Below, piece after piece: positions 27,469 through 57,778 of a stretch of 64,000 bases of DNA. The first letter of the stretch is position 1. Each line of letters begins with the position of its first letter. Position numbers and translations under genes: made by a program. Source of the stretch: Trichormus variabilis 0441 (GTDB lineage Bacteria; Cyanobacteriota; Cyanobacteriia; Cyanobacteriales; Nostocaceae). The stretch lies in contig NZ_CP047242.1 in NCBI RefSeq assembly GCF_009856605.1, positions 1-64,000 on the forward strand. The letters are read 5' to 3'. The notes under the pieces are model-generated. The model was given only the letters and a program-made list of their open reading frames with translations. It was not told the origin of the DNA and searched no databases.

Positions 27469-30400
27469 ATGAGTGAATTACTAAAGCGTTTGGAACAGCT
27501 ATCGCCTCAAAAACGCGAACTTGTTCTGCAAAAATTGTTAGCACAGCAATCTTCTACAATCAACAATAAACCTAAATTGCCGCGCATTGAAGCTGTTAGC
27601 AGCGACAAATTAATACCTTTATCTTTTCCCCAACAAAGACTTTGGTTTCTTGACCAAATGGAGGGTAATAGTGCTGCATATAATATGGCGGCTGCGGTAG
27701 AAATTACTGGCAATCTGCAAGTATCTATCCTAGAAAACATCATTGCCGAAATCATTCAACGTCATGCCATTCTCCGGACTAACTTTAAAAACGTTGATGA
27801 CAATGCTGTTCAGATAATTGCACCTCATCTCACAATAAATATTCCTGTAATTGACTTACAAACATTGCCAGTAGCAGAACAGTTTGCCGAGGTAGAATGT
27901 TTAGCGATCGCGGAACAATTAAAACCTTTTGACTTAGCGAACGATTGTTTGTTACGGGTGACGTTGCTACAGTTAGCCCCAGAATCTTATGTGTTGCTGG
28001 TCACAATGCACCATATTGTTTCTGATGGCTGGTCGATGGGGGTATTTATTCAAGAATTTTCAACTCTGTACACCGCTTTTTCGCAAAATCAACCTTCTCT
28101 ACTGCCAGAATTAGCCATCCAATATGCTGATTTTGCTCATTGGCAAAGACAATGCTTGCAAGGTGAGGTATTAGAAAATCAACTCAACTACTGGCGGCAG
28201 CAGTTAGCAGGTATTCCCCCCATCTTAGAATTACCTACAGACCGCCCGCGTCCTCCAGTGCAAACTTTTCAAGGTCAAACTTTATATTTTGAACTCGACC
28301 AAAATCTCACCAAACAACTAAATATCCTGTGCCAAAAGTCAGGGACAACCATGTTTATGACCCTGATGGCAGCTTTTGCAACTTTACTGTACCGCTATAG
28401 TCGCCAGTCAGATATTGTCATCGGTTCTCCTATTGCTAACCGCGATCGCCAAGAAACATTTCCACTAATTGGTTTATTTGTCAATACTTTAGTGCTGCGA
28501 ACTAATTTAGAGGGGAATCCGAGTTTTGCAGAATTACTGCAAAAAGTCAAACAAGTGGCTTTAGATGCCTATGCTCATCAAGATGTACCTTTAGAGCGAT
28601 TAGTCGAAGCTTTGCAACCAGAGCGATCGCTCTCCCATATGCCATTGTTCCAAGTGGCGTTTGCGATGCAAAATGCACCGATGGGTAAATTAGAATTACC
28701 CAACTTGAGTTTAAATCTCTTAAAAATCGAAAATCGCACAGCGAAATTTGATCTGGCGCTATCAATGCAAGAAACCGAGTCAGGACTTTTAGGAGAATGG
28801 GAATTCAACACCGATCTATTTGATGCTACGACGATTAGCCGCATGGCGAGACATTTCCAGACTTTGCTGGAAAATATTGTGGCTAATCCTCAACAACGAA
28901 TTGCGGAAGTATCATTATTAAGTGCTAGCGAGCAGCATCAATTACTTGTAGATTGGAACAACACCACCACTGATTATCCCCAAGGTAAATGTATTCATCA
29001 GTTATTTGAAGAGTGGGTAGAACAAACACCAGATGCGGTGGCGGTAGTCTTTGAAAATCAGCAAATTACCTACAAAGAGTTAAATCATCGCGCCAACCAA
29101 TTAGCACACCAATTGCAAACCTTGGGTGTCAAACCAGACGTATTGGTGGGGATTTGCGTTGAGCGTTCCCTAGAGATGATAGTAGGATTATTGGGAATTC
29201 TCAAAGCAGGTGGTGGGTATGTACCTTTAGATCCTAACTATCCGAGCGATCGCTTGGCTTTTATGCTCAATGATGCTCAATTACCAGTATTATTAACACA
29301 ACAGCAATTAGTAGAGAAATTACCAGAGCATCAAGCGATCGCAATTTGTTTGGATGCAGACTGGAACGAAATTGCCAAAAATAATAGTTTTAATCCCACC
29401 AGTACAGTTACCACTGCCAATTTAGCCTATGTAATTTATACCTCTGGATCGACAGGCAAACCAAAAGGCGTGATGGTAGAGCATACTGGGTTATGCAACT
29501 TAGCCAAAGCGCAGATTCAGACTTTTGATGTGCAAACATCCAGCCGGATTCTTCAGTTCGCCTCCTTTAGTTTTGACGCTTCTATTTTTGAAGTTGTGAT
29601 GGCTCTGGGAACGGGAGCTAGACTTTATCTGGGAACAAAAGAATCTTTATTGCCTGGTTCATCATTAATTCAGCTATTACAAAAATACGGTATTACCCAC
29701 ATCACCTTACCACCCTCAGCTTTAGCGGTCTTACCTGCTGATGAACTCCCAGCGTTGCAAACCATCATCGTAGCAGGAGAAGCTTGTCCTCCCGATTTAG
29801 TCGAGCGTTGGTCTCGTGGTCGTCGTTTCTTCAATGCTTACGGCCCGACAGAAGCCACTGTTTGGTCAACAGTTGCAGAATGCAGCAGCAACAGCACTAA
29901 CAAACCCCCCATTGGTCGTCCAATTACCAATACACAAATATATTTACTCGATCAAGATTTGCAACCTGTACCTGTTGGTGTTCCAGGCGAACTGCATATT
30001 GGTGGTATTGGATTAGCCAGAGGTTATCTCAACCGTCCTGAGTTGACACAACAAAAATTCATTCCTCACCCCTTTAGCAATGAACCAGAAGCGCGACTTT
30101 ACAAAACAGGCGACCTCGCTCGCTACTTAAGCGATGGCAATATTGAATACTTAGGACGTATCGATCATCAAGTGAAACTACGCGGCTTCCGTATTGAATT
30201 GGGAGAAATTGAAGCTTTACTCAGCCAGCATCCAGGAGTAATCCAAAATACACTGATCATCCGTGAAGATATCCCTGGTAGCCAACGTTTAGTCGCTTAC
30301 ACAGTTGCCAATCCCGACCAAATACCAACAATTAGTGAACTGCGACAATTCCTCAAGGAACGGCTACCTGAGTACATGGTTCCTTCGGCTTTTGTGATGT

Positions 30401-33754: not shown

Positions 33755-34777
33755 ATGAATAACGTAGAATTACCAACAAACAGTATTAAAAAACTACAAA
33801 TTGGCAAACGCAAAGTAGTTGAAAAATTAGTCAACATAGAACCACTCAACTCAGATAATCCTTTACCTTTAGTTATTTCCCCTGCTGTAGATGGGATGAA
33901 TTTAATCAATTGGGCGCAGCAGAATCGTGATTTAATTGAAACTAACTTACTGAAAAATGGTGGCATACTCTTTCGCAATTTTCATGTTAATACAGTTGAA
34001 GATTTCCAAAAGTTTGTGAAAGTAGTATCCACCGGAGAACTCTTAGATTACACCTATCGCTCAACGCCACGTACAGAAGTCACTGATAAAATCTATACTT
34101 CAACTGAATATCCCGCAGATGAAATCATTCCACTACATAACGAAAATGCTTACTCTCCCGTTTATCCCATGAAGATATGGTTTTTCTGTGTGAAAGCATC
34201 AGAGATTGGCGGAGAAACACCAATCTCTGATAGCCGTAAAGTGTTTGAACGCATTAACCCGTCCATCAAAAAACGGTTTATAGAAAAGCAAGTCATGTAT
34301 GTGCGAAATTATGGCGATGTCGATTTGCCTTGGCAAGAAGTTTTTCAAACTACAAATAAATCTGAGGTAGAAAGTCATTGTCGCCAGTTAGGCATTTCTT
34401 TTGAATGGACAGGGAACAATACTCTCAGAACTAGCCAAGTGTGTCCAGCTGTTGCCAAACACCCGAAAACCAGTGAAATGGTATGGTTTAACCAAGCCCA
34501 TTTGTTCCATATTTCCAGTTTGAAAGCAGAAGTGCGCGAATCATTATCTGCATTACTCAAAGAAGATGATTTTCCCCGCAATGCCTATTATGGTGATGGT
34601 TCTCCCATTGAAGTCTCGGTTTTAGACGAAATCCGGGAAATATATCGCCAAGAAGCAGTAATTTATCCTTGGCAGGAAGGAGATGTGTTAATGCTGGACA
34701 ATATGTTGGCTGCACATGGAAGGATGCCATTCGTCGGGAAACGAAAGATTGTAGTGGCGATGGCGGAACCTTGCTGA
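33755..34777 (+). CDS. SyrP/TauD-type Fe(II)/2-oxoglutarate beta-hydroxylase
   Basis: A 340-residue non-heme iron dioxygenase. The metal triad is visible: His128 and Glu130 in PLHNENAY, and His321 in AAHGRMPF, with Arg330 as the probable 2-oxoglutarate anchor. The HNE pattern and overall length fit SyrP-like enzymes that hydroxylate the beta carbon of Asp or related residues bound to a carrier protein. It lies between the two NRPS genes, and a strong terminator follows it. The downstream synthetase has an asparagine-like specificity code and a catalytically dead C-like domain that may recruit this enzyme. I predict beta-hydroxylation of PCP-bound Asn (or Asp). A free amino acid substrate, as for AsnO, is the main alternative. 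Confidence 0.82.
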   Translation: MNNVELPTNSIKKLQIGKRKVVEKLVNIEPLNSDNPLPLVISPAVDGMNLINWAQQNRDLIETNLLKNGGILFRNFHVNTVEDFQKFVKVVSTGELLDYTYRSTPRTEVTDKIYTSTEYPADEIIPLHNENAYSPVYPMKIWFFCVKASEIGGETPISDSRKVFERINPSIKKRFIEKQVMYVRNYGDVDLPWQEVFQTTNKSEVESHCRQLGISFEWTGNNTLRTSQVCPAVAKHPKTSEMVWFNQAHLFHISSLKAEVRESLSALLKEDDFPRNAYYGDGSPIEVSVLDEIREIYRQEAVIYPWQEGDVLMLDNMLAAHGRMPFVGKRKIVVAMAEPC

Positions 34778-34998: not shown

Positions 34999-37900
34999 AT
35001 GCACACTGAAATGACTAATCTGATTCGTATTTCTCCTCAACAAAAGCATTTATGGTTACAACAAAAAGATAATTATCAAGCTTACTGTACACAAATTGCT
35101 ATTAATATCACAGGGAATCTGAACTCAGATATTCTGAAATTAGCTTTAGCAAATCTTAGCGATCGCTATGAAATATTTCACACTGCTTTTCATTCTTTAC
35201 CAGGGATGAATATCCCATTCCAATCAATTAGCGATGCTCCAACTTACAACCATATTTCCCTAGCAGAATATGATTGGAGTCGTTTAAGTTCTCAGGTACA
35301 AAAAGCCAAAATCGATACACTTTTTCAAGATACCAGCCTCCGAGTTTTTGATTTTGAACAAGCGACAAATTTACATTTTATCTTAGGGAAGCTAGCGACA
35401 GATCAGCATATACTGTTTATCAGCTTGCCTGCTTTATATGCAGATAAGACAACACTCAACTATCTTATATGTGAAATCGGTCGTGCTTATACAGCTTGTT
35501 TAGATGGCGAAGAAATTTCTGAGGAAGTAATGCAATATGCAGATGTCTCTGAATGGCTGAATGAATTATTAGAATCTGAGGATACAGAAACAGCTAGAAA
35601 TTATTGGCAACAACAAGATATTTCTTCTGTGTTAAATTTGCGAATTCCTTTTGAAATCAAAAATGATCATCAGTCATCCGGAGAAATTAGCTTTGCACCT
35701 CAGTCGCTGTGTTTAGCGATGAACCGCGATACAGTAGAAAAACTAGAAATTCTCCAAGAAAGTTATCATACTTCAACAGAAGCTATTTTATTAGCTTGTT
35801 GGCAAGTGCTACTGTGGCGGTTAAGCGGTCAGTCGGAAATTGTGATTGGGGCGGCTGGCGATGGACGCGAATATGATGAATTAAAAGGAGTTTTTGGACT
35901 TTTAACTAAATATTTACCGATTCACTCCCGCTTAGAGGATGCTTTAAAATTCTCAGAACTGATGGAAAGAGTTTCTGAGTCTTTGCGGTTTGTAAAAAAA
36001 TGGCAAGAGTATTTTAACTGGGAGAATTTCATCTCTACTAATGAGAAATTTGCTGCTCGCCCCTTTTTCCCATTCTGCTTTGATTTTACACAACAGTCAC
36101 AGAGCTATGTAAATGGAAATATTGCCTTTTCGGAATATAAAAAATCTGCCAACATCGACAAATTCCAAATTAAGCTATCTAGCGGTTATAGCCAAGATAA
36201 TTTGGTGGTGAATTTTGATTACGATGCTAACTTATTTTCGGAGGATAGTATCAAAATTCTCGCGGAACAATATCTAACATTAATCGCAAGTGTCACTTAT
36301 AACCCAGAAGCAGCAATCATTGATTTAAATATGATCAGTGAAAGCGATCGCCAGAAATTATTGATTGATTTTAACAATACAAAAATAGAGTTTCCCCACG
36401 ATAAATGTCTTCATGAACTATTTGCCGCACAAGTAGAACGTACCCCCAACAACATCGCCGTTGAATTCAATCACGAATCCCTCACTTATGCCCAACTAAA
36501 CGCCAAATCCAACCAGCTAGCGCATCATCTCCAAAAATTAGGAGTAAAACCAGAAGTATTGGTGGGAATTTGTGTAGAACGTTCCTTAGATATGCTGATT
36601 GGTATCCTGGGTATTCTCAAAGCTGGTGGTGCATATATACCATTCGATCCCACCTATCCCCAAGAACGACTGGGATTTATGTTAGAAGATGCTCAAATTC
36701 CCATCCTGTTAACGCAACAAAGACTGGTAGATAAATTTGTTGAACATAAAACCCAGATAATTTGTCTGGATCGAGACTTACCAGAAAATGCCACCCTCAG
36801 CATTGACAACCCTGTCAGCAATGTTACATCAGAAAATTTAGCTTATATCATTTACACCTCTGGTTCTACAGGAAAACCCAAGGGAACGATGATTCCCCAC
36901 AGAGGCTTAGTTAACTACCTGAGTTGGTGTACAAATGCTTATGCGTTAGCCCAAGGTTATGGTGCGCCAGTACAATCTTCCATCGGGTTTGACGCGACAA
37001 TTACCAGCTTATTCTCACCGTTATTAGTCGGAAAAAGGGTTGTATTGTTACCTGAGAAGGAAGAAATTGAAGCCTTGTCAGCACTTTTACAGTCTGATCA
37101 AAACTATAGCTTGGTGAAAATTACACCAGCGCACCTGGAAATGCTCAATCAAATGTTACCTAACCATAAAGGTGTCACGGAAACAAGAGCATTAATCATC
37201 GGTGGTGAAGCATTATTGGGTAAAAGCTTGAACTTTTGGCGCGATAATGCCCCAAAGACCAGAATCATTAACGAATATGGCCCCACCGAAACTGTTGTTG
37301 GTTGTTGTGTTTATGAGGTTGATGAGCAAACTTCTTTATCAGGTGCAATTTTAATTGGTCGCCCCATTGCAAATACTCAACTTTATTTGCTGGATGACAA
37401 GCAAAAACTTGTACCAATCGGTGTTCCCGGCGAATTATATATTGGTGGTGCAGGAGTAGCTAGGGGCTATCTCAATCGTCCAGAATTAACACAACAGCGA
37501 TTTATCCCTAATCCTTTTAGCGATGAACCTAATTCTCGCCTATACAAGACAGGAGATTTAGCGCGATATTTACCTGATGGTAATATTGAGTACCTCGGAC
37601 GCATTGACCATCAAGTGAAAATTCGTGGTTTCCGTATTGAATTAGAAGAAATTGAGTCCTTACTAGCCCAACATCCCCTAGTAAATGCTGTCACTGTAAT
37701 TGCGAGAGAAGACCAACCTGGAGATAAGCGGTTGGTAGGCTATATTGTACCGAAAGAGCAAGCCCCCACCAGTAGCGAACTGCGCCAATTTTTACAGTCC
37801 AAGTTACCCGAATACATGATACCCTCTGCCTTTGTGATGCTAGAGGTCATCCCTCTCACCACTCATGGTAAGGTAGACCGCCAAGCCCTACCGCAACCCG

Positions 37901-39036
37901 ATACATCCCGTCTAGATACACTCAAAGTAGAATTTATCGCACCACGCGATCGCCTAGAACTAAAATTAGCCAATATTTGGGAAAATCTACTCAATGTCCA
38001 TCCTATAGGTATCAAAGATAGCTTTTTTGAACTCGGTGGTCACTCTCTGCTGGCTGTGCGCTTGATGGCTCATATTAACCAAGAGTTTGGTAAAAACTTA
38101 GCCTTAGCCACACTTTTCCAAAACCCCACAATCGAAAAATTGGCTAATCTGCTTCGCCAAACATCAGAAATCTCATCTTGGTCTCCCTTAGTAGAAATTC
38201 AAACAGGTAATTCCCAGTATCCTTTCTTCTGCTTACCTGGAGGCGGTGGTAATGTCCTTTATTTACATGAGTTGGCGCGTGATTTAGGTTCTGAGCAAAC
38301 ATTTTACGGTTTACAAGCGCCAGGTTTAAATGGAGAATCAGACCCCTTGACTAGTGTTGAAGAGATGGCGGCTTATTACATCCAGGCTATACAAAGCGTG
38401 CAGCCGGAAGGGCCATATTTTCTCGGTGGTCACTCCTTTGGGGGTATTGTGGCCTATGAAATAGCTCAACAGTTAGTCAAATCCGGACATGAGGTGGCTT
38501 TAGTGGCGATTTTAGACGCTCCAGCCCCAGTTGCTAGTGACAAACCTATATATATTGATGTTGATGATGCAACGCGATTGACCGAAACTGCTCGCCTGAT
38601 TGAACGTTGGGCAGGTAAAAGCTTAAATATCAGCTATGAAATACTCCAGCCACTAGAACTCGACGCACAATTGGAATATCTCAAAGAACAATTAATTGCC
38701 GTTGGTTTACTCCCGACTGGTACTGAGACAAAGCAAGTGCGTGGGTTGGTGCAAGTGTTCGAGACCAATCTGCAAGCTAGTATCAAATATTCACCACAGG
38801 AAGTTTATCCCCATCGCCTGACACTGCTGCGGGCTAGGGAAGTGAACGCAGAGGATGCGGCACTATTAACTGAGTTGCGCCAAGATCCCGCCTGGGGATG
38901 GGGTCAGTTTTCGACTGAAAAAGTCGATATTCACATTGTTCCAGGCGATCATATGACGATGATGACTCAACCCCACATCTCATCGGTTGCCAAACAACTA
39001 AGAATCTGCATTGAGCAAACAAATGTAGGTTCATGA
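34999..39036 (+). CDS. Terminal NRPS: inactive C-like (interface-type) domain, A, PCP, TE
   Basis: A 1345-residue synthetase. Residues 1-440 have a condensation fold (RISPQQKHLWLQQKDNYQAY) but the active-site motif HHxxxDG is replaced by SLPALYADK at 142-150, so it cannot condense. The A domain (about 455-960) has YTSGSTGKPKG, and specificity residues read by hand as DATKIGEVGK, one position from the known Asn code DLTKIGEVGK. PCP Ser1016 lies in GGHSLLA. The type I thioesterase has GGHSFGG with Ser1146 and His1318 in PGDHMTM. It should load Asn, receive the chain from the last C domain of the upstream protein, and release or cyclise the product. The dead C-like domain beside a SyrP-type hydroxylase matches the interface-domain arrangement described for siderophore synthetases. 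Confidence 0.9.
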   Translation: MHTEMTNLIRISPQQKHLWLQQKDNYQAYCTQIAINITGNLNSDILKLALANLSDRYEIFHTAFHSLPGMNIPFQSISDAPTYNHISLAEYDWSRLSSQVQKAKIDTLFQDTSLRVFDFEQATNLHFILGKLATDQHILFISLPALYADKTTLNYLICEIGRAYTACLDGEEISEEVMQYADVSEWLNELLESEDTETARNYWQQQDISSVLNLRIPFEIKNDHQSSGEISFAPQSLCLAMNRDTVEKLEILQESYHTSTEAILLACWQVLLWRLSGQSEIVIGAAGDGREYDELKGVFGLLTKYLPIHSRLEDALKFSELMERVSESLRFVKKWQEYFNWENFISTNEKFAARPFFPFCFDFTQQSQSYVNGNIAFSEYKKSANIDKFQIKLSSGYSQDNLVVNFDYDANLFSEDSIKILAEQYLTLIASVTYNPEAAIIDLNMISESDRQKLLIDFNNTKIEFPHDKCLHELFAAQVERTPNNIAVEFNHESLTYAQLNAKSNQLAHHLQKLGVKPEVLVGICVERSLDMLIGILGILKAGGAYIPFDPTYPQERLGFMLEDAQIPILLTQQRLVDKFVEHKTQIICLDRDLPENATLSIDNPVSNVTSENLAYIIYTSGSTGKPKGTMIPHRGLVNYLSWCTNAYALAQGYGAPVQSSIGFDATITSLFSPLLVGKRVVLLPEKEEIEALSALLQSDQNYSLVKITPAHLEMLNQMLPNHKGVTETRALIIGGEALLGKSLNFWRDNAPKTRIINEYGPTETVVGCCVYEVDEQTSLSGAILIGRPIANTQLYLLDDKQKLVPIGVPGELYIGGAGVARGYLNRPELTQQRFIPNPFSDEPNSRLYKTGDLARYLPDGNIEYLGRIDHQVKIRGFRIELEEIESLLAQHPLVNAVTVIAREDQPGDKRLVGYIVPKEQAPTSSELRQFLQSKLPEYMIPSAFVMLEVIPLTTHGKVDRQALPQPDTSRLDTLKVEFIAPRDRLELKLANIWENLLNVHPIGIKDSFFELGGHSLLAVRLMAHINQEFGKNLALATLFQNPTIEKLANLLRQTSEISSWSPLVEIQTGNSQYPFFCLPGGGGNVLYLHELARDLGSEQTFYGLQAPGLNGESDPLTSVEEMAAYYIQAIQSVQPEGPYFLGGHSFGGIVAYEIAQQLVKSGHEVALVAILDAPAPVASDKPIYIDVDDATRLTETARLIERWAGKSLNISYEILQPLELDAQLEYLKEQLIAVGLLPTGTETKQVRGLVQVFETNLQASIKYSPQEVYPHRLTLLRAREVNAEDAALLTELRQDPAWGWGQFSTEKVDIHIVPGDHMTMMTQPHISSVAKQLRICIEQTNVGS

Positions 39037-39047
39037 GGAGTGTCGAA

Positions 39048-46745: not shown

Positions 46746-46808
46746 CTTTATTATTAATTATCAATTCTGTTCATTACCTTTACTGGATTTATTTTGAGGA
46801 AAAACCCA

Positions 46809-49800
46809 ATGATTACTAACGATAATGTTGAATTTTCTACTTTAGTAGACTTATTAAGATACAGAGCGCAAAATCAACCTACACAAACAGCTTATACATT
46901 TCTTGTTGATGGGGAAACAGAAAGCATCTCTTTAACTTATCAAGAATTAGATCAAAAAGCACGGGCGATCGCAACTCAACTTTTGCAACGGGGAGTACCA
47001 GGTTCACGGGCTTTGTTACTTTATCCACCAGGAATGGAATTTATCCCTGCCTTTTTTGGTTGTTTATATGCTGGCTTTATTGCTGTTCCGGCTTATCCAC
47101 CCCGACGTAACCAAAAAATGTCTAGGCTACAGGCGATCGTATCAGATGCCGAGGCTGTAGTCGCACTGACTACATCTACAGAATTAACTTCGATGGCCTT
47201 ACAGTTAGCAGAAAATCCTACCTTGACAGCGATACCCTGGATCACAACTGATAATCTCAATGCAAATATAGCTGAAGATTGGCAACAACCCAATATTAAT
47301 AGTGATACTTTGGCCTTTCTGCAATACACTTCAGGTTCAACCGGCACACCCAAAGGGGTAATGATTACCCACGGCAATTTATTGCATAATTCCCAACTCA
47401 TCTATAACTTTTACCAACACACACCCAATAGCCAAGGTGTAATTTGGTTGCCTCCGTACCACGATATGGGATTAATTGGTGGGGTTCTGCAACCTCTGTA
47501 TGGTGGTTTTCCGGTGACTTTGATGGCCCCAGTCGCCTTTTTGCAAAAGCCTTTTCGTTGGTTGCAGGCCATTTCTCATTACAAAGCAACTACCAGTGGC
47601 GGCCCTGATTTTGCTTATGACTTAGTCTGTCGTCAAATTACTCCCGAACAACTAGCAAGCCTGGATTTGAGTAGTTGGGAAGTGGCGTTTACCGGTGCTG
47701 AACCAATACGCGCACAAACTCTAGACCGATTTGCAGAAACTTTTGCGCCTTGCGGTTTCCGGAGAGAAGCTTTCTATCCTTGCTATGGGATGGCGGAAAC
47801 TACTTTAATTGTCTCTGGGGGTTGGAAATCTGAAGCTCCCATTGTGCGACATATAGATACCACAGCTTTGTTACAAAACCAAGTCATAGATACGACTACG
47901 GCGGCTGGTGGTAAAGCCATTGTGGGTTGCGGTAAAAGTAGCCCAGACCAAACAGTACTGATTGTCAATCCTGAATCATTGACATCTTGTGCAGATGGAC
48001 AGGTAGGAGAAATTTGGGTATCGGGGTCTAGTGTTGCTCAAGGTTACTGGAATCGCCCCGAACAAACACAACATACCTTTCATGCTTACCTAGCAGATAA
48101 TACAACTGGCCCTTTTCTGCGGACTGGAGATTTGGGCTTTTTACAGGATGGTGAGTTATTTATTACTGGTCGTCTCAAAGATTTAATTATCATTATGGGA
48201 CGCAATCATTATCCCCAAGATATTGAATTTACAGTGGAAAGTTGTCACCCAGCACTACGTCCAGCAGGTGGTGCGGCTTTTGCAGTTGAAGTTAACAACG
48301 TGGAGAAATTGGTGATTGTTCAAGAAGTGGAACGTAGCTATCTGCGCAAGCTAAATGCTGATGAAGTCATAGGTGCTATTCGTAAGGCTGTAGCCGAACA
48401 TCATGATTTACAAACTCATACCATCGCTTTAATTAAAACGAACAGTTTGCCGAAAACTTCTTCTGGGAAAGTCAGACGTAGTAACTGTAAAGCTGAGTTA
48501 GAAGCTGGAAGTCTCGACATAATTGCACAGTGGAGTGCAGATGCTCAAAACCATAGTCCATCAGAAAAATTAATTGCTCCACAGGTAGAAAAAACAGTCA
48601 ATACCGAAGCAGTTGCAACTTGGTTGTTAACAAAAGTGAGCGAACAATTACAAGTTCCTGCTCAAACAATCAACGTTAACGAACCTCTAGCACAATATGG
48701 TTTGGGTTCTTTAGCAGCAGTGAGAATTTCCGGAGAATTGCAGGAATGGTTAGGGCGGGAATTGCCAACAACGCTGTTGTATGACTATCCTTCCATCGCT
48801 GCTTTAGCTCAATATTTAGGTGATGGAGTGCCACAACCCAAGGTAGTCTCACAGCAACCAACAGACAATCATGCGATCGCCTCTGGCGGGGCTGCGCCCA
48901 TCGCGATCGTGGGTATTGGTTGCCGTTATCCTGGTGCAAATAATCCGGAAGCCTTTTGGCAATTACTCCGCAATGGCGTAGATGCTATTAGTGAAGTTCC
49001 TCAACAACGCTGGGATGTGAATTCTTTTTATGATCCCAACCGTGCTACACCAGGCAAAATGAATACTCGCTGGGGTGGTTTCATCTCGGAAGTAGATCAA
49101 TTTGATGCCCCATTCTTTGGGATTTCTCCACGGGAAGCCGAGTCTCTCGATCCCCAACAACGGTTACTTCTAGAAGTTTGCTGGGAAGCATTAGAAAATG
49201 CAGGTAAAGCACCGAGTAAGTTAGCCGGAAGCAACACAGGGGTATTTGTTGGTATTAGTAATTTTGATTACTCCCAATTGCTAGCCAAACAAGTGTCTGG
49301 ATTAGATGCTTATAGTGGAACTGGTAACGCTTTTAGTATTGCCGCTAACCGCATATCCTATTTATTAGATGTACACGGGCCAAGTTGGGCAGTAGACACA
49401 GCTTGTTCTTCATCCTTAGTTGCAGTTCACCAAGCTTGTCAAAGTCTGCGTCAGGGAGAATGCGAAATGGCTTTAGCTGCTGGTGTGAACTTAATTCTCA
49501 CTCCACAGTTGACAGTGACATTTTCCCAAGCTGGAATGATGGCTGGTGACGGTCGTTGTAAGACTTTTGATGCTGATGCGGATGGTTATGTGCGGGGCGA
49601 AGGTTGTGGTGTAGTGGTACTCAAGCGTCTGAGTGATGCTTATCGTGATGGCGATCGCATTTTGGCAGTGATTAAAGGTTCAGCCGTGAACCAAGACGGA
49701 CGCAGCAACGGACTCACCGCCCCCAATGGACTAGCCCAGCAAGCTGTAATTCGGCAAGCCATGCAAAATGCTGGTGTTGCACCTCATGAAATTGGCTATG

Positions 49801-51779
49801 TAGAAGCGCATGGTACAGGCACATTTTTAGGCGACCCCATCGAGGTTAATTCCCTGAAAACAGTCCTCGCACCAGGACGCGCACCTGGAGATACCTGTGT
49901 GATTGGTTCAGTCAAAACCAATATCGGACATCTAGAAGCAGCCGCCGGCATTGCTGGTTTAATTAAAACTGTCCTCTCACTACACCATGAAGAAATTCCG
50001 CCCCATCTGCACCTTAAACAAGTTAACCCCCACATTTCCTTAGCTGATACGAATTTATCTATCGCTACTACATTGTTACCTTGGAATAGAGGTAATAAAC
50101 GGCGGTTGGCTGGTGTATCTTCCTTTGGTTTTGGTGGTACTAATGCCCATATCATCTTAGAAGAAGCTCCTCTAGTTAGTCCTAAAGACACAGTCAGTGA
50201 TGAACGTCCCTTGCATTTATTCACACTCTCAGCTAAAAGTGAAAATGCTTTGCGTGATTTAGCAAAAGACTATGAGAATTATCTAGGTAACCACCCTGAT
50301 GCTTCATTAACAGACATTTGTTTCACCGCCAATACTGGACGATCGCATTTTGATCATCGCTTAGTGGCGATCGCTCAATCTAATATCCAATTACAAACCG
50401 TACTAGGTGCTTACGCGACTGGGAAGAAAACCTCACAATTGGTCAGTGGTAAAATCGAAAACAAACAGCAACCGAAAATCGCCTTTTTATTCACAGGTCA
50501 AGGTTCTCAATATATCAACATGGGTCGCCAACTGTATGCAACCCAGCCGACCTTCCGCGCCGCCATTGACCAATGTGAGCAAGTTTTGCGGTCATACTTA
50601 GATCAACCACTGCTGTCAGTTTTGTATCCTGACACAGAAAGCAGCTGCATCGATGAAACCGCTTATACCCAACCTGCGATATTTGCTGTAGAGTATGCCC
50701 TAGCGCAATTGTGGAAGTCTTGGGGTGTAGAACCAACAGCTGTCATTGGTCATAGTTTCGGTGAATATGTCGCCGCTTGTATTGCTGGAGTATTCAGTTT
50801 AGAAGCAGGACTGAAGTTAGTTACCGAGCGATCGCGCTTAATGCAAGCACTCAAATCAATGGGTGCAATGGCTGCGGTGTTTGCTAGTGAGGAACAAGTG
50901 CAAGCCGCGATCGCTGAATACAGTCCAGAGGTGACAATCTCTGCTGTAAACGCTCCTGATAATATCACCATCTCTGGTACAGTCGCCAAAATTGCAGCAG
51001 CGATCGCCAAGTTCACAGCCCAAGGAATTGAGACTCGACGCTTGAATGTATCCCATGCTTTTCATTCGCCTTTAATGGATGAAATGCTTGATGCTTTTGA
51101 ACAAGCAACCAACCTAGTCAACTTCCAAGCACCACAGATTCCTTTCGTTTCCAATGTCACCGGCAATTTCCTTCCAGTCGGACAAGTACCGGATGCTCAA
51201 TACTGGCGATCGCATACACGCCAGTCCGTCAGATTTATGGACGGATTGAATACTTTATTAGCTGAAGGTTACGAATTATTCATAGAAATTGGTGCTAAAC
51301 CAGTTCTTTGTAGTCTGGGTAAACGTTGTCACGGAGGCGAAAATTCTGTTTGGTTGCCTTCTTTGAATGCCAAGCGAGATAATTGGCAAACATTACTAGA
51401 AAGTTTATCAACATTGTATCTACGGGGAGTAGAGATTGACTGGGCAGGATTTGAAAGTGATTATTCCAGTCAGCTAGTTGCACTTCCTACTTATGCCTTT
51501 CAAAGAAAACGTTACTGGATTCAATCGCCAAATAGGGTTGACAATATCCCAGTAAATCACCACAGCAATAATTCTCAACCTGTTACTTCCGCTAGTAGTG
51601 ATAGTGCAAAACTACCATCTCAGGCCTTAGTAGAAAAAATGCTCAAACAACAACTACAGATTATGTCTCAGCAATTGGAAGTGTTGCGTACTCATAATTT
51701 GACCAAAGGTCAATTCTTGCCATTGCAACATGGACACTTACCAAAGCCACCCAAGCTGAACCATCAGCCTAGTATTTAG
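46809..51779 (+). CDS. Hybrid FAAL-ACP-KS-AT initiation protein
   Basis: A 1656-residue protein from ATG 46809, with GAGGA upstream. Domains: fatty-acyl-AMP ligase (about 1-590) with YTSGSTGTPKG, HDMGLIGG and the FAAL-specific insertion region; ACP with GLGSLAA (Ser634); ketosynthase (about 695-1115) with DTACSSS (Cys866), EAHGTGT and NIGHLEAAAG; acyltransferase (about 1225-1550) with GHSFGEY (Ser1316) and HAFHSPL, the malonyl-CoA signature. No KR, DH or ER, so the extended chain stays beta-keto. The C-terminal tail has a helix (LVEKMLKQQLQIMSQQLEVL) that recurs inside the next protein. It should take a free fatty acid, load it on its ACP and elongate it onto the ACP of the next protein, as in mycosubtilin-type assembly. 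Confidence 0.92.
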   Translation: MITNDNVEFSTLVDLLRYRAQNQPTQTAYTFLVDGETESISLTYQELDQKARAIATQLLQRGVPGSRALLLYPPGMEFIPAFFGCLYAGFIAVPAYPPRRNQKMSRLQAIVSDAEAVVALTTSTELTSMALQLAENPTLTAIPWITTDNLNANIAEDWQQPNINSDTLAFLQYTSGSTGTPKGVMITHGNLLHNSQLIYNFYQHTPNSQGVIWLPPYHDMGLIGGVLQPLYGGFPVTLMAPVAFLQKPFRWLQAISHYKATTSGGPDFAYDLVCRQITPEQLASLDLSSWEVAFTGAEPIRAQTLDRFAETFAPCGFRREAFYPCYGMAETTLIVSGGWKSEAPIVRHIDTTALLQNQVIDTTTAAGGKAIVGCGKSSPDQTVLIVNPESLTSCADGQVGEIWVSGSSVAQGYWNRPEQTQHTFHAYLADNTTGPFLRTGDLGFLQDGELFITGRLKDLIIIMGRNHYPQDIEFTVESCHPALRPAGGAAFAVEVNNVEKLVIVQEVERSYLRKLNADEVIGAIRKAVAEHHDLQTHTIALIKTNSLPKTSSGKVRRSNCKAELEAGSLDIIAQWSADAQNHSPSEKLIAPQVEKTVNTEAVATWLLTKVSEQLQVPAQTINVNEPLAQYGLGSLAAVRISGELQEWLGRELPTTLLYDYPSIAALAQYLGDGVPQPKVVSQQPTDNHAIASGGAAPIAIVGIGCRYPGANNPEAFWQLLRNGVDAISEVPQQRWDVNSFYDPNRATPGKMNTRWGGFISEVDQFDAPFFGISPREAESLDPQQRLLLEVCWEALENAGKAPSKLAGSNTGVFVGISNFDYSQLLAKQVSGLDAYSGTGNAFSIAANRISYLLDVHGPSWAVDTACSSSLVAVHQACQSLRQGECEMALAAGVNLILTPQLTVTFSQAGMMAGDGRCKTFDADADGYVRGEGCGVVVLKRLSDAYRDGDRILAVIKGSAVNQDGRSNGLTAPNGLAQQAVIRQAMQNAGVAPHEIGYVEAHGTGTFLGDPIEVNSLKTVLAPGRAPGDTCVIGSVKTNIGHLEAAAGIAGLIKTVLSLHHEEIPPHLHLKQVNPHISLADTNLSIATTLLPWNRGNKRRLAGVSSFGFGGTNAHIILEEAPLVSPKDTVSDERPLHLFTLSAKSENALRDLAKDYENYLGNHPDASLTDICFTANTGRSHFDHRLVAIAQSNIQLQTVLGAYATGKKTSQLVSGKIENKQQPKIAFLFTGQGSQYINMGRQLYATQPTFRAAIDQCEQVLRSYLDQPLLSVLYPDTESSCIDETAYTQPAIFAVEYALAQLWKSWGVEPTAVIGHSFGEYVAACIAGVFSLEAGLKLVTERSRLMQALKSMGAMAAVFASEEQVQAAIAEYSPEVTISAVNAPDNITISGTVAKIAAAIAKFTAQGIETRRLNVSHAFHSPLMDEMLDAFEQATNLVNFQAPQIPFVSNVTGNFLPVGQVPDAQYWRSHTRQSVRFMDGLNTLLAEGYELFIEIGAKPVLCSLGKRCHGGENSVWLPSLNAKRDNWQTLLESLSTLYLRGVEIDWAGFESDYSSQLVALPTYAFQRKRYWIQSPNRVDNIPVNHHSNNSQPVTSASSDSAKLPSQALVEKMLKQQLQIMSQQLEVLRTHNLTKGQFLPLQHGHLPKPPKLNHQPSI

Positions 51780-52417
51780 GGACTTCCAACTAAAAAAATA
51801 TACAATCACTGTGGTAAGCAGGGGAGGCAGGGGGAGCAGGGGAGGAAGAATACAATGATCATATTTGCTCTGACCCATTGAATAATTTATTTTCTGGAAT
51901 TCCCTTAAACAGGCAACAGAGATAATGCGTCATGTTCCAATACGGTTCAGTTAAGAGAATGGTAGGTTGGGTGGAGCGATAGCGGAACCCAACAAAGTCT
52001 TGAGAATGTTGGGTTCCGTTCCTCCACCCAACCTACACCAGTCTAAGTTGTTGCCTTAACTGAACTGTATTGCGTCATGTTCAACTCTGAGACCATACCA
52101 CCACATTCTTGAGACACAGGGTTGAACATTTTTCAACCCCTACCTACATATTTAGTTTCATCTTGTACATAGTTTCTCCAGTCCCCTGCTGTACTAAAAC
52201 AAGCAATATTCACAGCACCCTTGCATAAATAAAATTCTCGACCCCTATTAAAACAGAGACACAAGATATAGAAATCCTACTTGATTTTTGTACAAAATAC
52301 CGACCAATTGCCAGGTTTCATTGCCTAACCTCGGCCTACGCCAATCATCAAAATGGATGCCTATAGTTGCTAAAGAAAAAATGTCATCAAAATACTACTA
52401 ACACACAATCAAAAAAT
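51780..52417. other. Spacer between the two initiation genes
   Basis: About 640 bases. It contains a G-rich stretch (around 51820-51850, GCAGGGGAGG repeated with variations), a long palindromic element with direct flanking repeats (51939-52071) and otherwise no coding signal. A possible TTG start at 52367 would extend the next gene by 17 codons, but those codons are not domain-like. Confidence 0.5.
51939..52071. mobile_element. Long palindromic MITE-like element with target duplication
   Basis: Outer arms AATACGGTTCAGTTAAG and CTTAACTGAACTGTATT, with inner arms GGTAGGTTGGGTGGAG and CTCCACCCAACCTAC and a core CGGAACCCAACA / TGTTGGGTTCCG. The whole 133 bases can fold into one hairpin. The sequence GCGTCATGTTC stands on both sides (51927-51937 and 52072-52082), an 11-base direct repeat that looks like a target-site duplication. 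Confidence 0.75.
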
Positions 52418-55400
52418 ATGAACACATATACTATTGACAATCATAATTCCTACTCTCTAGTTACTAACCAGTCCCAAGAATGTCAAAATACTTTAGCAAA
52501 CTTACGTGTAATTATTGCAGATTTACTCAAATGTGAACCTGAAGAAGTAGATGTAAAAGTTCCATTTCTAGAAATGGGTGCTGATTCTATTGTTTTAGTT
52601 GATGCCATTCGTCAGATTGAAAATAATTTTAGAATTAAAATTACGATTCGTCAGTTATTTGAAGAATTAACAAACCTGAGTGTCTTAGCTAATTATATTG
52701 AGGAAAATGTAAAACTAGAACCATCGACATTGCTAGGTCAAGAAACATTAGAATTGTCGGTTAATCCACAGCCACTCCCACAATCACAACAGTCAGAACA
52801 GAAATCTGAAACATTAGTAGAAATAGTGCTGCGGCAGCAGTTTGAATTGATGTCTCAACAGTTGGAAATCTTACGGGAATCCAACTTACCAACTAATTTA
52901 AGTGTTACTCCTAGCCAAAATCAAGCAGCGAAATCTGTTCCTAATGCAGTAGTACAAACAACACCTGACTTGAAAACAGGGGAGTTAAATAAATCTACAC
53001 TCAAAAAAGCTGATTCACCCTCTTCTTTCTGGCGAGTTGAACAATCTCAAGCTAAAACCCTGACTTCCCAACAACAACAATATTTAAATTCTTTAATTGC
53101 ACGTTATACCAAACGTACAGCCAAATCCAAGCAGCGATCGCAATCTTATCGCCCAGTCCTGGCCGATAGAAGAGCTTCCATTGGATTTCGCCCGGAAACT
53201 AAAGAAATCCTCTATCCTATAGTTGGCGATCGCTCTCAAGGATCGAGGATTTGGGACGTTGATGGCAATGAGTACATAGATATTTCTATGGGTTTCGGTG
53301 TACATCTTTTTGGACATAATGTTCCGTTTATTACCGCAGCTCTAGAAGATCAAATCAAGCAAGGTATACAAATCGGCCCCCAATCAAAACTTGCAGGTGA
53401 GGTAGCCACTTTAATCTGCGAAATGACCGGAATGGAACGAGTCACTTTCTGTAATTCCGGTACAGAAGCAGCGATGACAGCGATGCGTATAGCTCGTGCA
53501 GCCACAGGTCGCGCCAAAATTGCTATCTTCAAAGGTGCTTATCACGGACACTTTGATGGTACTTTAGCCATACCCCAAACATCTGAAGACGGAAAATTAC
53601 CAGCACAACCAATGGTTCCAGGAGTGCTGCAAAATATGGTTGATGATGTTTTGCTGCTAACTTATGGTACTCCCGAATCACTGGAAATTATCAAAGCTAA
53701 TGCCCATGAATTAGCAGCTGTTTTGGTTGAACCGATACAAAGCCGTAAACCCGATTTACAACCCAAAGAATTTCTGCAACAGCTACGAGTAGTCACACAA
53801 CAACTAGATATTGCCTTGATTTTCGATGAAGTAATCACAGGTTTCCGCGTTCATCCCCGTGGCGCGCAAGCATGGTCTGGTGTTGATGCAGATATTGTCA
53901 CCTATGGCAAATTAATTGGTGGCGGTATGCCAATTGGGGTAATAGCTGGCAAAGCCGCCTACATGGATAAAATCGACGGTGGTTTCTGGAGCTATGGAGA
54001 TGATTCTTATCCTGAAGTAGAAACAACATTCTTTGCTGGTACTTTCTCCAAGCATCCATTGACGATGGCAGCAACACGAGCTACACTTTTACACCTCAAA
54101 GCTGAAGGAGCATCTCTACAGGAGCGATTAAATCAACGCACATCTAATTTAGCTGCCACACTTAATAGTTACTTTGAACAAGCAAATGTTCCTTTGCGGA
54201 TAGTACATTTTAGTTCACTGTTCCGCTTCACTTTATCCGGCAATTCCAGTTATCTTTATCAGCCTTTAGAAATGGATTTGCTGTACTATTCCTTAATTGA
54301 AAAAGGCGTTTATATCTGGGAAGGACGCACCTGTTTTCTATCTACTGCACATACCGATGAAGATGTAGATTATGTCATTCAAGCAGTTAAAGACAGTGTA
54401 CAGGAGTTGCAAGCTGTGGGTTTTTTTTCCAAAAGTCCCAAGTTATCAACAAATCAGCCGCAAACACCTAAAACATCAGAGCGTGTAAACAGTGCTGTAT
54501 CTTTGACAGTACAAGATACCATCAAGCCAGAAGTTAAGGAAGCATTCAAGATTCCCTTGAGCGATGCCCAAAAGCAGCTGTGGTTTTTAGCGCAAATGGG
54601 TGACAATGGCTCTGTTGCTTATAACATCTCTCTCAATATTCAATTACAGGGTACTCTTGATCTAGCTGCTATACGTCAAGCCGTGCAGCAAGTTGTGCAA
54701 CGGCATGAAGCTCTACGCACTACTATCAGCAGTCAAGGCGATTTTCAAGAAATATTACCATCACTGAAAATAGACGTTCCCGTAATTGATTTCTCCAATG
54801 TTAAAGATAGTCAGTTACAAGTGAACCAGTGGTTACAAAACTATAGCCGTGAATCTTTTGACCTGAGTAATGGGCCTTTGTTCCGTGTGCGAATTCTCAA
54901 ATTAGCAGAACAGTTACATTTGCTAGTTGTCAGCGCCCATCACATCATTACTGATGGCTGGTCAATCAGTATCATCTTGCAAGAAATGATGGCATTGTAT
55001 TCAGCCAAGTGCCAGGGTCATGTTTGCCAACTAGAACCACCAATACAATTTAGTTCTTATCTCGACTGGCATCGCCAATTCTGTGCCACAGACGAGATGA
55101 AAGCCCATGAATCATATTGGTTACAGAAGTTTGCTGACCCAGTTCCAGTTTTAGACCTGCCTACAGACCGTCAGCGTCCGCCAAGCAAAACTTATCAAGG
55201 TGGCAGACAACAGCTATTACTTGACCCTAATGTCAGTGCTGCCATCAAACAACTCAGTAAGCAAAACGGTTGCACCTTATTTATGACGCTGTTATCTGCA
55301 TACGCAGTTTTACTCTATCGCTTAACCAACCAAGACGACCTCACTATCGGCATCGCGTCTGCGGGACGTTCTCTTGAGGGTAGCGAGAGACTGGTGGGTT

Positions 55401-57778
55401 ATTGTAGCCATATGCTACCAATACGCACTCAAATTGTTGGTGATGCTACCTTTGTTGAGCATCTCAAAGCCTGCAAAAGTGTGTTGTTAGAAGCCTACGA
55501 ACATCAAGATTATCCTTTTGCTAAATTAATTGACAAGCTGAGAGTTAACAGCAACACTGGTATGTCTCCTTTGGTGAATGCTACCTTTAACTTGGAACGC
55601 CCCGTAGCTATTCCCCAAATGTATGGCTTAGAAAGCAGCTTGTTACCCCAGTCGATAAGTTTTGCTGATTATGACATCGGCTTAAATGTAACTGAGATTG
55701 ATCACGAGCTATTGTTGGAATGTGACTACAATGCAGACTTATTTGATGCTGCAACTATTGACCGCATACTGGGGCATTACCAAACCTTATTGTTAGGGAT
55801 TATTGCCAGTCCCCAAACATTAGTCTCGCAATTATCTTTATTAACAGCAACCGAACGTCAGCAAATCTTGGTGGAGTGGAATCAAACCCAAATCGACTAT
55901 GACCGCAATCAATGTGTACATCAAATATTTGAGCAACAAGCACAATTAACTCCTAATGCTGTGGCAGTAGAATCGGGTGAACAAAAACTCACTTACCGAG
56001 AGTTAAATCACCGTGCCAACCAATTAGCGCATTTCCTCCAAAGTTTAGGTGTCAAACCAGAAGTCCTTGTGGGTATTTGCGTTGAGCGTTCTGTAGAAAT
56101 GTTGGTGGCAATGCTGGGTGTTCTCAAAGCTGGTGGTGCTTACTTACCCCTAGACCCGGCTTATCCTCAAGAACGCTTGGCTCATATGCTAACTGATTCT
56201 CAAGCCTCGGTGTTACTGACAAGTGCTAACTTAGCGAGCCAACTGCCAAAATCATCTGCAAAATTAGTCAAGTTGGATACTGACTGGCAAGTGATTTCTC
56301 GGCAACCAATCATCAATCCTACTGGTATTGTTGTACCAAGTAATTTAGCCTATGTAATTTATACGTCAGGTTCTACGGGCAAATCTAAAGGAGTGCTTAT
56401 TCCCCACCAAGCTTTAGTTAATCATAACTACGCCATCGCTAAAAATTATGAGCTAAAAGCGAGCGATCGCATCCTCCAATTTGCCAGCTTTAGCTTTGAT
56501 GTTGCGGCTGAGGAAATATTCCCGACTTGGTTGAGTGGGGCGACTTTAGTACTACGACCAGAAGAAATATTTAGCATTCCCGATTTTGTGCAATTTGTCA
56601 AACAACAAGACTTGACTGTCTTAAACTTGCCTGTGGCATACTGGCAAGAGTGGGTTTCCCAAATGCCGCAAATTAGTTGGACACCCAATGTCCGCTTGTT
56701 GGTAGTTGGTAGTGAGAGAGTCCCTCTAGAGCGTTTTTTGACTTGGCAACAGCTAGTAGGTAGTAACGTGAGTTGGCGCAATGCTTACGGCCCTACGGAA
56801 GCAACAATTACAGCTACAATCTATGGTTCTCACTTGAGTTCCCATCAGCAAACAGCAGCTTCACTGTTTATCGGTCGTCCCATAGCTAACACACAAATTT
56901 ATATTCTCGACCAGCATTTACAACCAGTACCTATTGGGGTCACAGGTGAACTACATATTGGTGGGAATGGTTTGGCACAAGGTTATCTCCACCGTCCAGA
57001 ATTAACAGCCGAAAAATTCATTGCTCACCCTTTTAGCAATCAACCAACAGCCCGCTTGTACAAAACAGGGGATTTAGCCCGCTACAGAAGCGATGGTACG
57101 ATTGAATTTATCGGTCGCATTGATCATCAAGTAAAAATTCGCGGTTTCCGTATCGAACTGGGGGAAATAGAAACAGCACTCAATCAACATCCACAAGTAC
57201 GAGAGTGTGTAGTTATAGCCAGCGATGACCAATTAGCTCATCAGCAATTGCAAGCATACATCGTTTTTCATCAACAACTAAAAGTAGATAGTAGCGAACT
57301 GCATCGCTTCCTCAAGCAAAAATTGCCTGAGTACATGATACCTACTAGTTTCTTCCAGTTAGAAAATATACCCCTCACCCCCAACGCCAAAATCGACCGC
57401 CAGGCTTTAAATCGCTTAGGTGTGTTAATCAACAATATTGAAGTGAATCGGGTTGCACCCAGCAATCATATCGAGGAGGTACTAGCTAATATCTGGACTG
57501 AAGTTCTCAATTTAAAACAAGTAGGTATCCACAATAATTTCTTTGAATTAGGCGGTAATTCCCTCTTAGCAATGCAACTTTTAAATCGGGTCAATGAAGC
57601 CTTCTTAATAGATTTACCTTTGCGTAGTTTATTTGAATGTTCAACCATCGCTGAACTGAGCGAGTTGATTCAAGCTTACAAACTAGAACACTTAGAAAGC
57701 GATGCTCTTGAACAAATTTTAGCTGAAGTTGATGAGTTAATTGATACAGAAATCGAGCAAATGCTGGCTAAATTTTAG
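52418..57778 (+). CDS. Hybrid ACP-aminotransferase-NRPS (C-A-PCP)
   Basis: A 1786-residue protein from ATG 52418. Domains: ACP with MGADSIV (Ser57); class III PLP aminotransferase (about 230-680) of the GSA-aminotransferase type with FDEVITGFR and TYGKLIGGG (Lys498); condensation domain with HHIITDGWS (His841/842); adenylation domain with YTSGSTGKSKG; PCP with GGNSLLA (Ser1715); acidic docking tail ending EIEQMLAKF. The aminotransferase should convert the beta-keto acyl chain delivered by the FAAL-KS-AT protein to a beta-amino acyl chain, which the C domain then joins to residue 1. The hand-read specificity code is about DVENLVAITK, which I cannot assign. In iturin/mycosubtilin synthetases FAAL to AMT is one polypeptide; here it is split into two proteins. 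Confidence 0.92.
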   Translation: MNTYTIDNHNSYSLVTNQSQECQNTLANLRVIIADLLKCEPEEVDVKVPFLEMGADSIVLVDAIRQIENNFRIKITIRQLFEELTNLSVLANYIEENVKLEPSTLLGQETLELSVNPQPLPQSQQSEQKSETLVEIVLRQQFELMSQQLEILRESNLPTNLSVTPSQNQAAKSVPNAVVQTTPDLKTGELNKSTLKKADSPSSFWRVEQSQAKTLTSQQQQYLNSLIARYTKRTAKSKQRSQSYRPVLADRRASIGFRPETKEILYPIVGDRSQGSRIWDVDGNEYIDISMGFGVHLFGHNVPFITAALEDQIKQGIQIGPQSKLAGEVATLICEMTGMERVTFCNSGTEAAMTAMRIARAATGRAKIAIFKGAYHGHFDGTLAIPQTSEDGKLPAQPMVPGVLQNMVDDVLLLTYGTPESLEIIKANAHELAAVLVEPIQSRKPDLQPKEFLQQLRVVTQQLDIALIFDEVITGFRVHPRGAQAWSGVDADIVTYGKLIGGGMPIGVIAGKAAYMDKIDGGFWSYGDDSYPEVETTFFAGTFSKHPLTMAATRATLLHLKAEGASLQERLNQRTSNLAATLNSYFEQANVPLRIVHFSSLFRFTLSGNSSYLYQPLEMDLLYYSLIEKGVYIWEGRTCFLSTAHTDEDVDYVIQAVKDSVQELQAVGFFSKSPKLSTNQPQTPKTSERVNSAVSLTVQDTIKPEVKEAFKIPLSDAQKQLWFLAQMGDNGSVAYNISLNIQLQGTLDLAAIRQAVQQVVQRHEALRTTISSQGDFQEILPSLKIDVPVIDFSNVKDSQLQVNQWLQNYSRESFDLSNGPLFRVRILKLAEQLHLLVVSAHHIITDGWSISIILQEMMALYSAKCQGHVCQLEPPIQFSSYLDWHRQFCATDEMKAHESYWLQKFADPVPVLDLPTDRQRPPSKTYQGGRQQLLLDPNVSAAIKQLSKQNGCTLFMTLLSAYAVLLYRLTNQDDLTIGIASAGRSLEGSERLVGYCSHMLPIRTQIVGDATFVEHLKACKSVLLEAYEHQDYPFAKLIDKLRVNSNTGMSPLVNATFNLERPVAIPQMYGLESSLLPQSISFADYDIGLNVTEIDHELLLECDYNADLFDAATIDRILGHYQTLLLGIIASPQTLVSQLSLLTATERQQILVEWNQTQIDYDRNQCVHQIFEQQAQLTPNAVAVESGEQKLTYRELNHRANQLAHFLQSLGVKPEVLVGICVERSVEMLVAMLGVLKAGGAYLPLDPAYPQERLAHMLTDSQASVLLTSANLASQLPKSSAKLVKLDTDWQVISRQPIINPTGIVVPSNLAYVIYTSGSTGKSKGVLIPHQALVNHNYAIAKNYELKASDRILQFASFSFDVAAEEIFPTWLSGATLVLRPEEIFSIPDFVQFVKQQDLTVLNLPVAYWQEWVSQMPQISWTPNVRLLVVGSERVPLERFLTWQQLVGSNVSWRNAYGPTEATITATIYGSHLSSHQQTAASLFIGRPIANTQIYILDQHLQPVPIGVTGELHIGGNGLAQGYLHRPELTAEKFIAHPFSNQPTARLYKTGDLARYRSDGTIEFIGRIDHQVKIRGFRIELGEIETALNQHPQVRECVVIASDDQLAHQQLQAYIVFHQQLKVDSSELHRFLKQKLPEYMIPTSFFQLENIPLTPNAKIDRQALNRLGVLINNIEVNRVAPSNHIEEVLANIWTEVLNLKQVGIHNNFFELGGNSLLAMQLLNRVNEAFLIDLPLRSLFECSTIAELSELIQAYKLEHLESDALEQILAEVDELIDTEIEQMLAKF

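Follow-up and report, generated by a model that had tools for sequence, protein, structure and literature searches.

A cyanobacterial locus predicted to assemble a short beta-amino lipopeptide ending in beta-hydroxyasparagine, and the exchange of domains among its relatives

What kind of molecule is built by a split set of polyketide synthase (PKS) and nonribosomal peptide synthetase (NRPS) genes in the cyanobacterium Trichormus variabilis 0441, and from where was its hydroxylating module acquired? The genes lie at 27469-57778 of the first 64,000 nucleotides of contig NZ_CP047242.1 (assembly GCF_009856605.1; C1:1-64000 in a five-contig assembly totalling 7.1 Mb, here G000), a stretch hereafter called the window. 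On the basis of domains, motifs, adenylation codes, gene order in relatives and tree positions, we consider it probable that a complete assembly line is encoded here, whose product would be a small beta-amino lipopeptide ending in beta-hydroxyasparagine (beta-OH-Asn). An earlier note on this DNA had named fatty acyl-AMP ligase (FAAL), acyl carrier (ACP), ketosynthase (KS), acyltransferase (AT), aminotransferase (AMT), condensation (C), adenylation (A), peptidyl carrier (PCP), epimerization (E) and thioesterase (TE) domains, every one of which was found by Pfam and motif scans on the + strand within these limits. The genes and the evidence for each are as follows.

27469..33591, + strand: N1, an NRPS with the order C-A-PCP-E-C (Pfam, motifs, code, C-domain tree)
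33755..34777, + strand: TauD-family Fe(II)/2-oxoglutarate dioxygenase (PF02668, 157.8 bits)
34999..39036, + strand: N2, an NRPS with the order interface-type C-like-A-PCP-TE (Pfam, motifs, code, interface clade)
39033..40364, + strand: major facilitator superfamily (MFS) exporter, overlapping N2 by 4 bp (PF07690)
40852..44349, + strand: DevB, DevC and DevA ABC exporter genes (TIGR02971, TIGR01185 and TIGR02982, above cut-off)
44350..45930, + strand: Ser/Thr kinase with in-frame ATG codons at 44440 and 44458 (PF00069)
46200..46745, + strand: stand-alone FAAL C-terminal-domain-like protein of 181 amino acids (PF23024)
46794..51779, + strand: PKS with the order FAAL-ACP-KS-AT, earliest in-frame ATG at 46809 (Pfam, motifs)
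52367..57778, + strand: N0, with the order ACP-AMT-C-A-PCP, earliest in-frame ATG at 52418 (Pfam, HemL-type match, code)

With regard to the beginning of the line, the beta-amino acyl start that had been proposed for this locus is supported by the FAAL, a KS-AT without ketoreductase (KR) and the AMT, all in place. Frame 46794-51779 contains an AMP-binding domain (PF00501) with a DIP2/FAAL-type C-domain, PP-binding (PF00550), KS and AT matches and no KR match in Pfam, as is consistent with an unreduced extension; FAAL models also match it, but under their equivalog cut-offs. The AT motifs are GHSFG and HAFH, a pair that we take to denote the malonyl type. Frame 52367-57778 contains two PP-binding domains, a class III aminotransferase, a Condensation and an AMP-binding domain, with the AMT adjoining an NRPS module. 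Between the AMT match (ending at residue 682) and the C domain (starting at 728) of N0 there are only about 45 residues and no large insert, and therefore no monooxygenase of the puwainaphycin-synthetase type at this place; about 390-440 residues occupy the same position in three of the closest foreign AMTs (L167, L168 and L169), and no insert is present in L173, L176 or the Planktothrix cluster L178. The starter is predicted to be a plain beta-amino acyl group.

The frame of N1 (27421-33591) gives three Condensation matches (996.8 bits), AMP-binding and PP-binding, with its earliest in-frame ATG at 27469, in agreement with the earlier note, and that of N2 (34999-39036) gives a Condensation-like match (191 bits), AMP-binding, PP-binding and Thioesterase. 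HHxxxDG is present in all three true C domains and in the E domain, an EGHGR-type motif in N1 and the TE motif GHSFGG in N2, and all active-site motifs searched are intact with the exception of the C-like domain of N2. Neither Rfam families nor tRNAs were found when the 64-kb window was scanned for them.

In the window, the starter genes (PKS and N0) stand downstream of the later modules. Four other genomes contain the cluster as well, namely G047, Nostoc NMS8 (G099), Scytonema NIES-4073 (G100) and N. punctiforme NIES-2108 (G101); the clusters of G099 and G101 were each read from two stretches, and N1 of G047 is cut at a stretch edge. G047, G099 and G101 share the gene order of the window, and in Scytonema the series begins with N0, immediately ahead of N1, and continues with TauD, N2, MFS, DevBCA, the kinase, the small FAAL-like gene and the PKS, so that N0, N1 and N2 are colinear there, which supports an N0-N1-N2 order of assembly. 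That the PKS would act first is based on domain logic.

Three amino-acid modules (N0, N1 and N2) had been counted before, and this count is upheld, as is release by the TE, which is found at the end of N2. It has also been considered that these genes share their starter with, or borrow modules from, another NRPS cluster, giving a peptide of more than three residues. Laxaphycin pathways use one loading PKS for two NRPS lines (PMC7524897), and 20 Condensation matches lie outside the window. However, the 16 of these 20 that were read fall in three stretches, each closed by its own TE, and to this extent no extra modules for the pathway were seen; N0 has its own C-A-PCP, N2 ends in a TE, and all five genomes contain the set as a unit; a longer peptide is consequently judged very unlikely.

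The residues can be predicted to differing degrees from the A-domain codes, which were obtained by alignment. The N0 code is DVENVGAITK in all five clusters. No published assignment of this code was found in the portions of the literature available, and because the nearest published codes are DVENAGVVTK, at the Ahp position of cyanopeptolin (PMC2533009), and DAEYVGSITK, for which D-Gln was found in tistrellabactins (PMC10391617), residue 1 is graded as Gln-like at best. For N1 the window has the code DAFTIAAVWK and both Nostoc clusters have DAFTTAAVWK, the code being DAFFLGGTFK in G047 and DAFFLGVTFK in Scytonema; cyanopeptolin codes include DAWTIAGVCK for Phe(Me) and DAFFLGVTFK at Ile/Val/Leu positions (PMC2533009), and residue 2 would thus be aromatic-like in the window and Ile/Val-like in two relatives. 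Its D-configuration, as claimed in the earlier note, is supported by the E domain of N1 and by the position of the next C domain, the last of N1, in a clade (support 97) where several of the other C domains come immediately after an E domain. Finally, the N2 code is DATKIGEVGK or DATKVGEVGK in four of the five clusters and DAWQFGLIDK in G047. In tistrellabactins, DATKIGEVGK is predicted as Asn with D-Asn/Asp found, and OH-Asp was found for DLTKVGHVGK (PMC10391617); DATKVGEVGK is likewise predicted as Asn (PMC3547906), and DAWQFGLIDK corresponds to Gln (PMC2866473). By its code, residue 3 of the window would be Asn, and the previously suggested beta-OH-Asn is supported by this code together with the neighbouring TauD gene.

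The TauD protein retains its HNE motif (His128-Glu130) and the distal His321, is 52.8% identical to the TauD of the cyanochelin B plasmid, and is predicted to be a beta-hydroxylase acting at the N2 module. Beside its gene, and directly before the A domain of N2, is the C-like domain without HHxxxDG, in which the equivalent stretch reads ISLPALYAD. In a tree of 97 C-type domains made by a quick method, it belongs to a clade of 18 members, none of which has HHxxxD and one of which is that of cyanochelin B (SH-aLRT 100); these 18 are also its best matches within the tree, and two further domains without the motif are placed elsewhere. The 'C-like' domain of the earlier note is therefore present, but can be refined to a member of a clade of inactive interface-type domains; together with the terminal C domain of N1 and TauD it forms a cassette. 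The name 'interface domain' is said to come from work of Reitz et al. in 2019. A survey of TauD genes covered 102 places in 83 sources, in 55 of which a C-like-A pair closely follows (37 cyanobacterial, 18 other), and the C-like domain after TauD carries HHxxxD in none of the 37 cyanobacterial pairs and in 11 of the 18 others; at 15 more cyanobacterial places no such pair is close by, many of these TauD domains being fused into long proteins or lying near the end of a locus.

On these grounds, the following route is proposed. The FAAL-ACP would load a fatty acid, which the KS-AT would extend by one malonyl unit without reduction, and the N0 aminotransferase would convert the beta-ketone into a beta-amine before N0 adds residue 1, for which the Gln-like code leaves the identity uncertain. 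N1 would add the aromatic-type residue 2 and epimerise it, and its terminal C domain would couple the D-residue to residue 3, an Asn loaded by the A domain of N2 and beta-hydroxylated, while bound to the N2 carrier, by the free TauD, for which the catalytically dead interface domain would be the docking site. Release by the TE may then occur through hydrolysis or through cyclisation onto the beta-amine, and the MFS and DevBCA exporters would carry the product out of the cell. The substrates, the hydroxylation of Asn, the order of the steps and the export are what we infer in this scheme.

The closest known counterpart of the cassette belongs to cyanochelin B of Leptolyngbya NIES-3755 (AP017310), in which the same arrangement of E-C, free TauD (CcsK), C-like domain without HHxxxD, A and PCP (CcsL) occurs, and where D-threo beta-OH-Asp6 has been assigned to the free-standing hydroxylase and module of this CcsK/CcsL pair (PMC12628792). 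The A code, on the other hand, is DLTKIGHVGK (Asp) in cyanochelin B and DATKIGEVGK (Asn) in the window, and cyanochelin B is a longer peptide that contains two beta-OH-Asp, carries a methyl-thiazoline-linked acyl chain and has a reductive end. It might be proposed from the shared TauD and interface domain that the product is a cyanochelin-type siderophore, with residue 3 as an iron-binding beta-OH-Asp and the beta-amine or residue 1 as further ligands, and two cyanobacterial hydroxylase clades, which may or may not include the window TauD, are treated in a 2026 study as putatively metallophore-specific (PMC12971057). Against this stand the Asn code of N2 (with E rather than H as its seventh letter) in four of the five clusters and the Gln-like code in the fifth, the presence in the locus of one TauD and one interface module only, as opposed to the two beta-OH-Asp of cyanochelin B, and the report of non-metallophore lipopeptides with such hydroxylases as false positives (PMC12971057). 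Moreover, neither the window nor the stretches covered in the four relatives contain a TonB plug gene; the genome has ten TonB plug matches, all outside the window and one of them beside another TauD cluster on C3. This absence is weak evidence, because with the two-sequence query used only one of 45 TauD loci with flanks of up to 10 kb was positive, and 15.8 kb of the cyanochelin B plasmid gave no match. The Asn code and the single hydroxylation module outweigh the TonB evidence; they rule out the siderophore as first choice and leave it an unlikely alternative to the lipopeptide ending in beta-OH-Asn.

How an Asn module came to be joined to such a hydroxylase was approached through a TauD tree of 102 rows, made by a quick method and with 51 of the 102 rows lacking a code; seven A domains were not coded automatically, three of which were added from a separate alignment, the rest being entered as 'na'. 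The window TauD and three relatives, all four Asn-coded, lie inside a clade in which every other member with a code is Asp-linked, the support being 86 for a 30-row clade and 97 when the clade is drawn more widely. Another Asn-linked group stands apart from it and consists of six cyanobacterial TauD loci (L072, L076, L077, L078, L081 and L082), which adjoin interface-A modules with the Asn code DLTKIGEVGK. Given the starred branches of the tree, the Asn label must have changed at least twice. Outside the cluster, the A domain of N2 is closest to five Asn A domains that are not beside a TauD gene (61-68% identity), compared with 59-61% to six TauD-linked Asn A domains and 51-52% to the best Asp-linked ones. 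Since TauD is nested among Asp-linked enzymes, yet the A domain is closest to Asn modules without TauD, the simplest reading is that the cassette is a mosaic, in which an Asp-type TauD and interface domain, probably descended from cassettes of the cyanochelin kind, would have been re-paired with an ordinary Asn-selecting A domain.

The same mosaic origin lends itself to another explanation, in which residue 3 stays unmodified Asn, TauD is either a relic or active elsewhere and the interface domain has a structural role only: the A domain was probably drawn from an Asn module without hydroxylation, and Asn may be no substrate for a hydroxylase of the Asp type. This is rendered improbable by the 89-91% identity of TauD in three relatives (dN 0.04-0.06 versus dS 0.43-0.59), by the retention of HNE and the distal His, and by G047, where TauD has been swapped together with its interface and A domains.

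Several points nevertheless weigh against a lipopeptide ending in beta-OH-Asn. The nearest relatives of the window TauD adjoin Asp modules, and the enzyme could be inefficient on Asn; both trees, of TauD and of C-type domains, are quick ones; residue 1 has no confident assignment; and the product is a prediction from genes, conservation in five clusters being no proof of expression. In addition, the N0 matches in G099 and G101 begin with two TGA codons, which lie upstream of an open 1770-aa frame holding all N0 domains.

The relatives themselves reveal which parts of the line have been conserved and which exchanged. The cluster is rare within the order, given that the AMT is found at 90% identity or more in only three of 388 genomes (G000, the source genome, G047 and G412, the last of which is probably the same genome as G101); other close N2 homologues occur in Calothrix NIES-2100 (92%), Nostoc DedSLP04 (86%) and Fortiea contorta (81%). 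The MFS exporter (87-94% to that of the window) and the Ser/Thr kinase are present in all five clusters, and DevBCA is 79-95% identical in the four relatives. Per domain and relative to the window (an end-trimmed alignment gives values up to 3 points higher), G047 shows 81-96% identity except for the A domain (57%) and PCP (72%) of N1, the second C domain (C2, 71%), TauD (51%), the interface domain (41%) and the A domain of N2 (54%). As TauD, interface and A domain diverge together between an E domain at 86% and a TE at 89%, with C2 intermediate, the three form a block that was exchanged as a whole. Scytonema shows 79-92%, except for the A domain (58%) and PCP (72%) of N1, the AMT (63%), the C domain of N0 (61%), the interface domain (73%), the kinase (63%) and the small FAAL-like protein (66%).

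This small protein, encoded at 46200-46745, is kept in all five clusters with an open frame in each. Over 120 aa it has 49% identity to the C-terminal domain of the FAAL encoded in the same cluster, its identity to orthologues being 66-81%, and dN/dS ratios of 0.25-0.36 place it under purifying selection; a decayed FAAL duplicate is ruled out by the five open frames and the same ratios. At E <= 1e-40, a cut-off that would miss weaker free-standing copies, 21 of the 388 genomes of the order have a match, and those in short frames (183-186 aa) are confined to G000, G047 and G412, all carriers of the cluster, the others being in frames of at least 354 aa. A protein search with candidates of about 100-317 aa gave 14 matches, 13 of them of 132-183 aa, including that of the window, and one of 288 aa with a carrier domain; P0002, P0003, P0009 and P0010 are on contigs that are apparently those of the N2 homologues, and P0012 is 55% identical to the window protein. 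It is suggested that the protein acts in trans on the FAAL or the ACP. In the literature passages sampled, no such trans-acting C-domain helper was found described for FAALs.

With respect to known systems, the three residues predicted here had been thought shorter than in related cyanobacterial lipopeptides, a view that does not hold, as anabaenolysins and microginins such as oscillaginin are equally short. Anabaenolysins consist of three residues and a beta-amino fatty acid in a small ring (PMC12473245, PMC3400675), but have Gly-Gly and a furanone-type residue and not X1-D-X2-OH-Asn, the comparison here being one of products. Microginins, including oscillaginin (Ahda-Ser-MeVal-HTyr, three residues), are made by synthetases that similarly combine FAAL, ACP, KS-AT and AMT with a short NRPS line, and differ in their alpha-hydroxy-beta-amino acid (PMC12250027). 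A plasmid cluster of Planktothrix agardhii (L178, NZ_LR882964) matches N0 over 97% of its length at 49% identity. Its three codes presumably mean Ser, a Leu-like residue and Tyr, and from these and its three modules it is probably a microginin-like three-residue cluster; taken as such, it lacks the E domain, TauD and interface domain, all three of which are present in the window. This plasmid cluster adjoins DISARM genes.

Puwainaphycin and minutissamide synthetases also have a FAAL start, a PKS module and a class III aminotransferase before the first NRPS module, but differ in a monooxygenase between AMT and NRPS, a methylating PKS (PMC4219810) and much longer peptides. Laxaphycin B and scytocyclamide combine a beta-amino acyl residue with 3-OH-Asn in one peptide; however, they have 12 residues, and their hydroxylation has been proposed for cupin 8 proteins, not TauD (PMC7524897). 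A two-residue lipopeptide cluster on a plasmid of Nostoc sp. UHCC 0870 (L179, NZ_CP091914) has the order FAAL-C-A-PCP-E, C-A-PCP-TE and MFS. It resembles the window in its first code, DVENVGAITK, its Asn-type last code, DSTKIGEVGK, its E and C domains, which are sister to those of N1, its TE and its MFS exporter, and differs in having two residues only and in lacking, so far as its stretch was read, a KS-AT, an AMT, a TauD, an interface domain and a middle module. Each part of the locus is therefore of a known kind, and the combination looks new. No publication on this product was recognised in the literature on the carrier strains, on beta-hydroxyasparagine in cyanobacteria and lipopeptides, on lipotripeptides and lipodipeptides, and on UHCC 0870, a sample drawn mostly from outside the subscription journals.

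A wider reading is put forward tentatively, as a possibility less likely than its alternative: that a siderophore-type cassette has been re-aimed from Asp to Asn by A-domain exchange (and wholly replaced by a Gln-type one in G047), giving a family of lipotripeptides that end in a beta-hydroxy amide residue without an iron role, with a cluster-linked stand-alone FAAL C-domain working in trans on FAAL or ACP. Should this hold, the five clusters would represent a natural experiment in NRPS recombination, with the A domain of N1 exchanged from an aromatic to an Ile/Val type, TauD, interface and A domain exchanged en bloc in N2, and AMT and C domain in N0, most other domains remaining at about 79-96%. 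Such cases would reveal natural exchange borders and indicate that hydroxylase, interface and A domains move together or are re-paired, which would be relevant to engineered beta-hydroxylated peptides, and the 181-aa protein would be a possible trans-acting partner for FAALs, the enzymes that start many cyanobacterial lipopeptides.

Among further observations, the other TauD cluster of this genome (L161/L162, C3:210000-245000 on a 293 kb contig) comprises a FAAL, a C-TauD fusion, an interface-A pair, a TE and an MFS exporter, and adjoins a TonB receptor. Its two A codes are both DSALIAEVWK, which we take to mean His, making it a candidate beta-OH-His siderophore cluster. Within the window, a similar stretch around MSQQLE occurs at the C-terminus of the PKS (51550-51779) and in the linker after the N0 carrier domain (52760-52940), as if the split PKS/N0 border had arisen by duplication or the stretch had a docking role. 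Lastly, the kinase (44350-45930) and an adjoining caspase-domain protein (57900-60089) have in common a C-terminal segment of 57 residues at 32% identity (E 6e-6, a single pair being compared), to which no Pfam name is attached and which is perhaps a shared adaptor domain.

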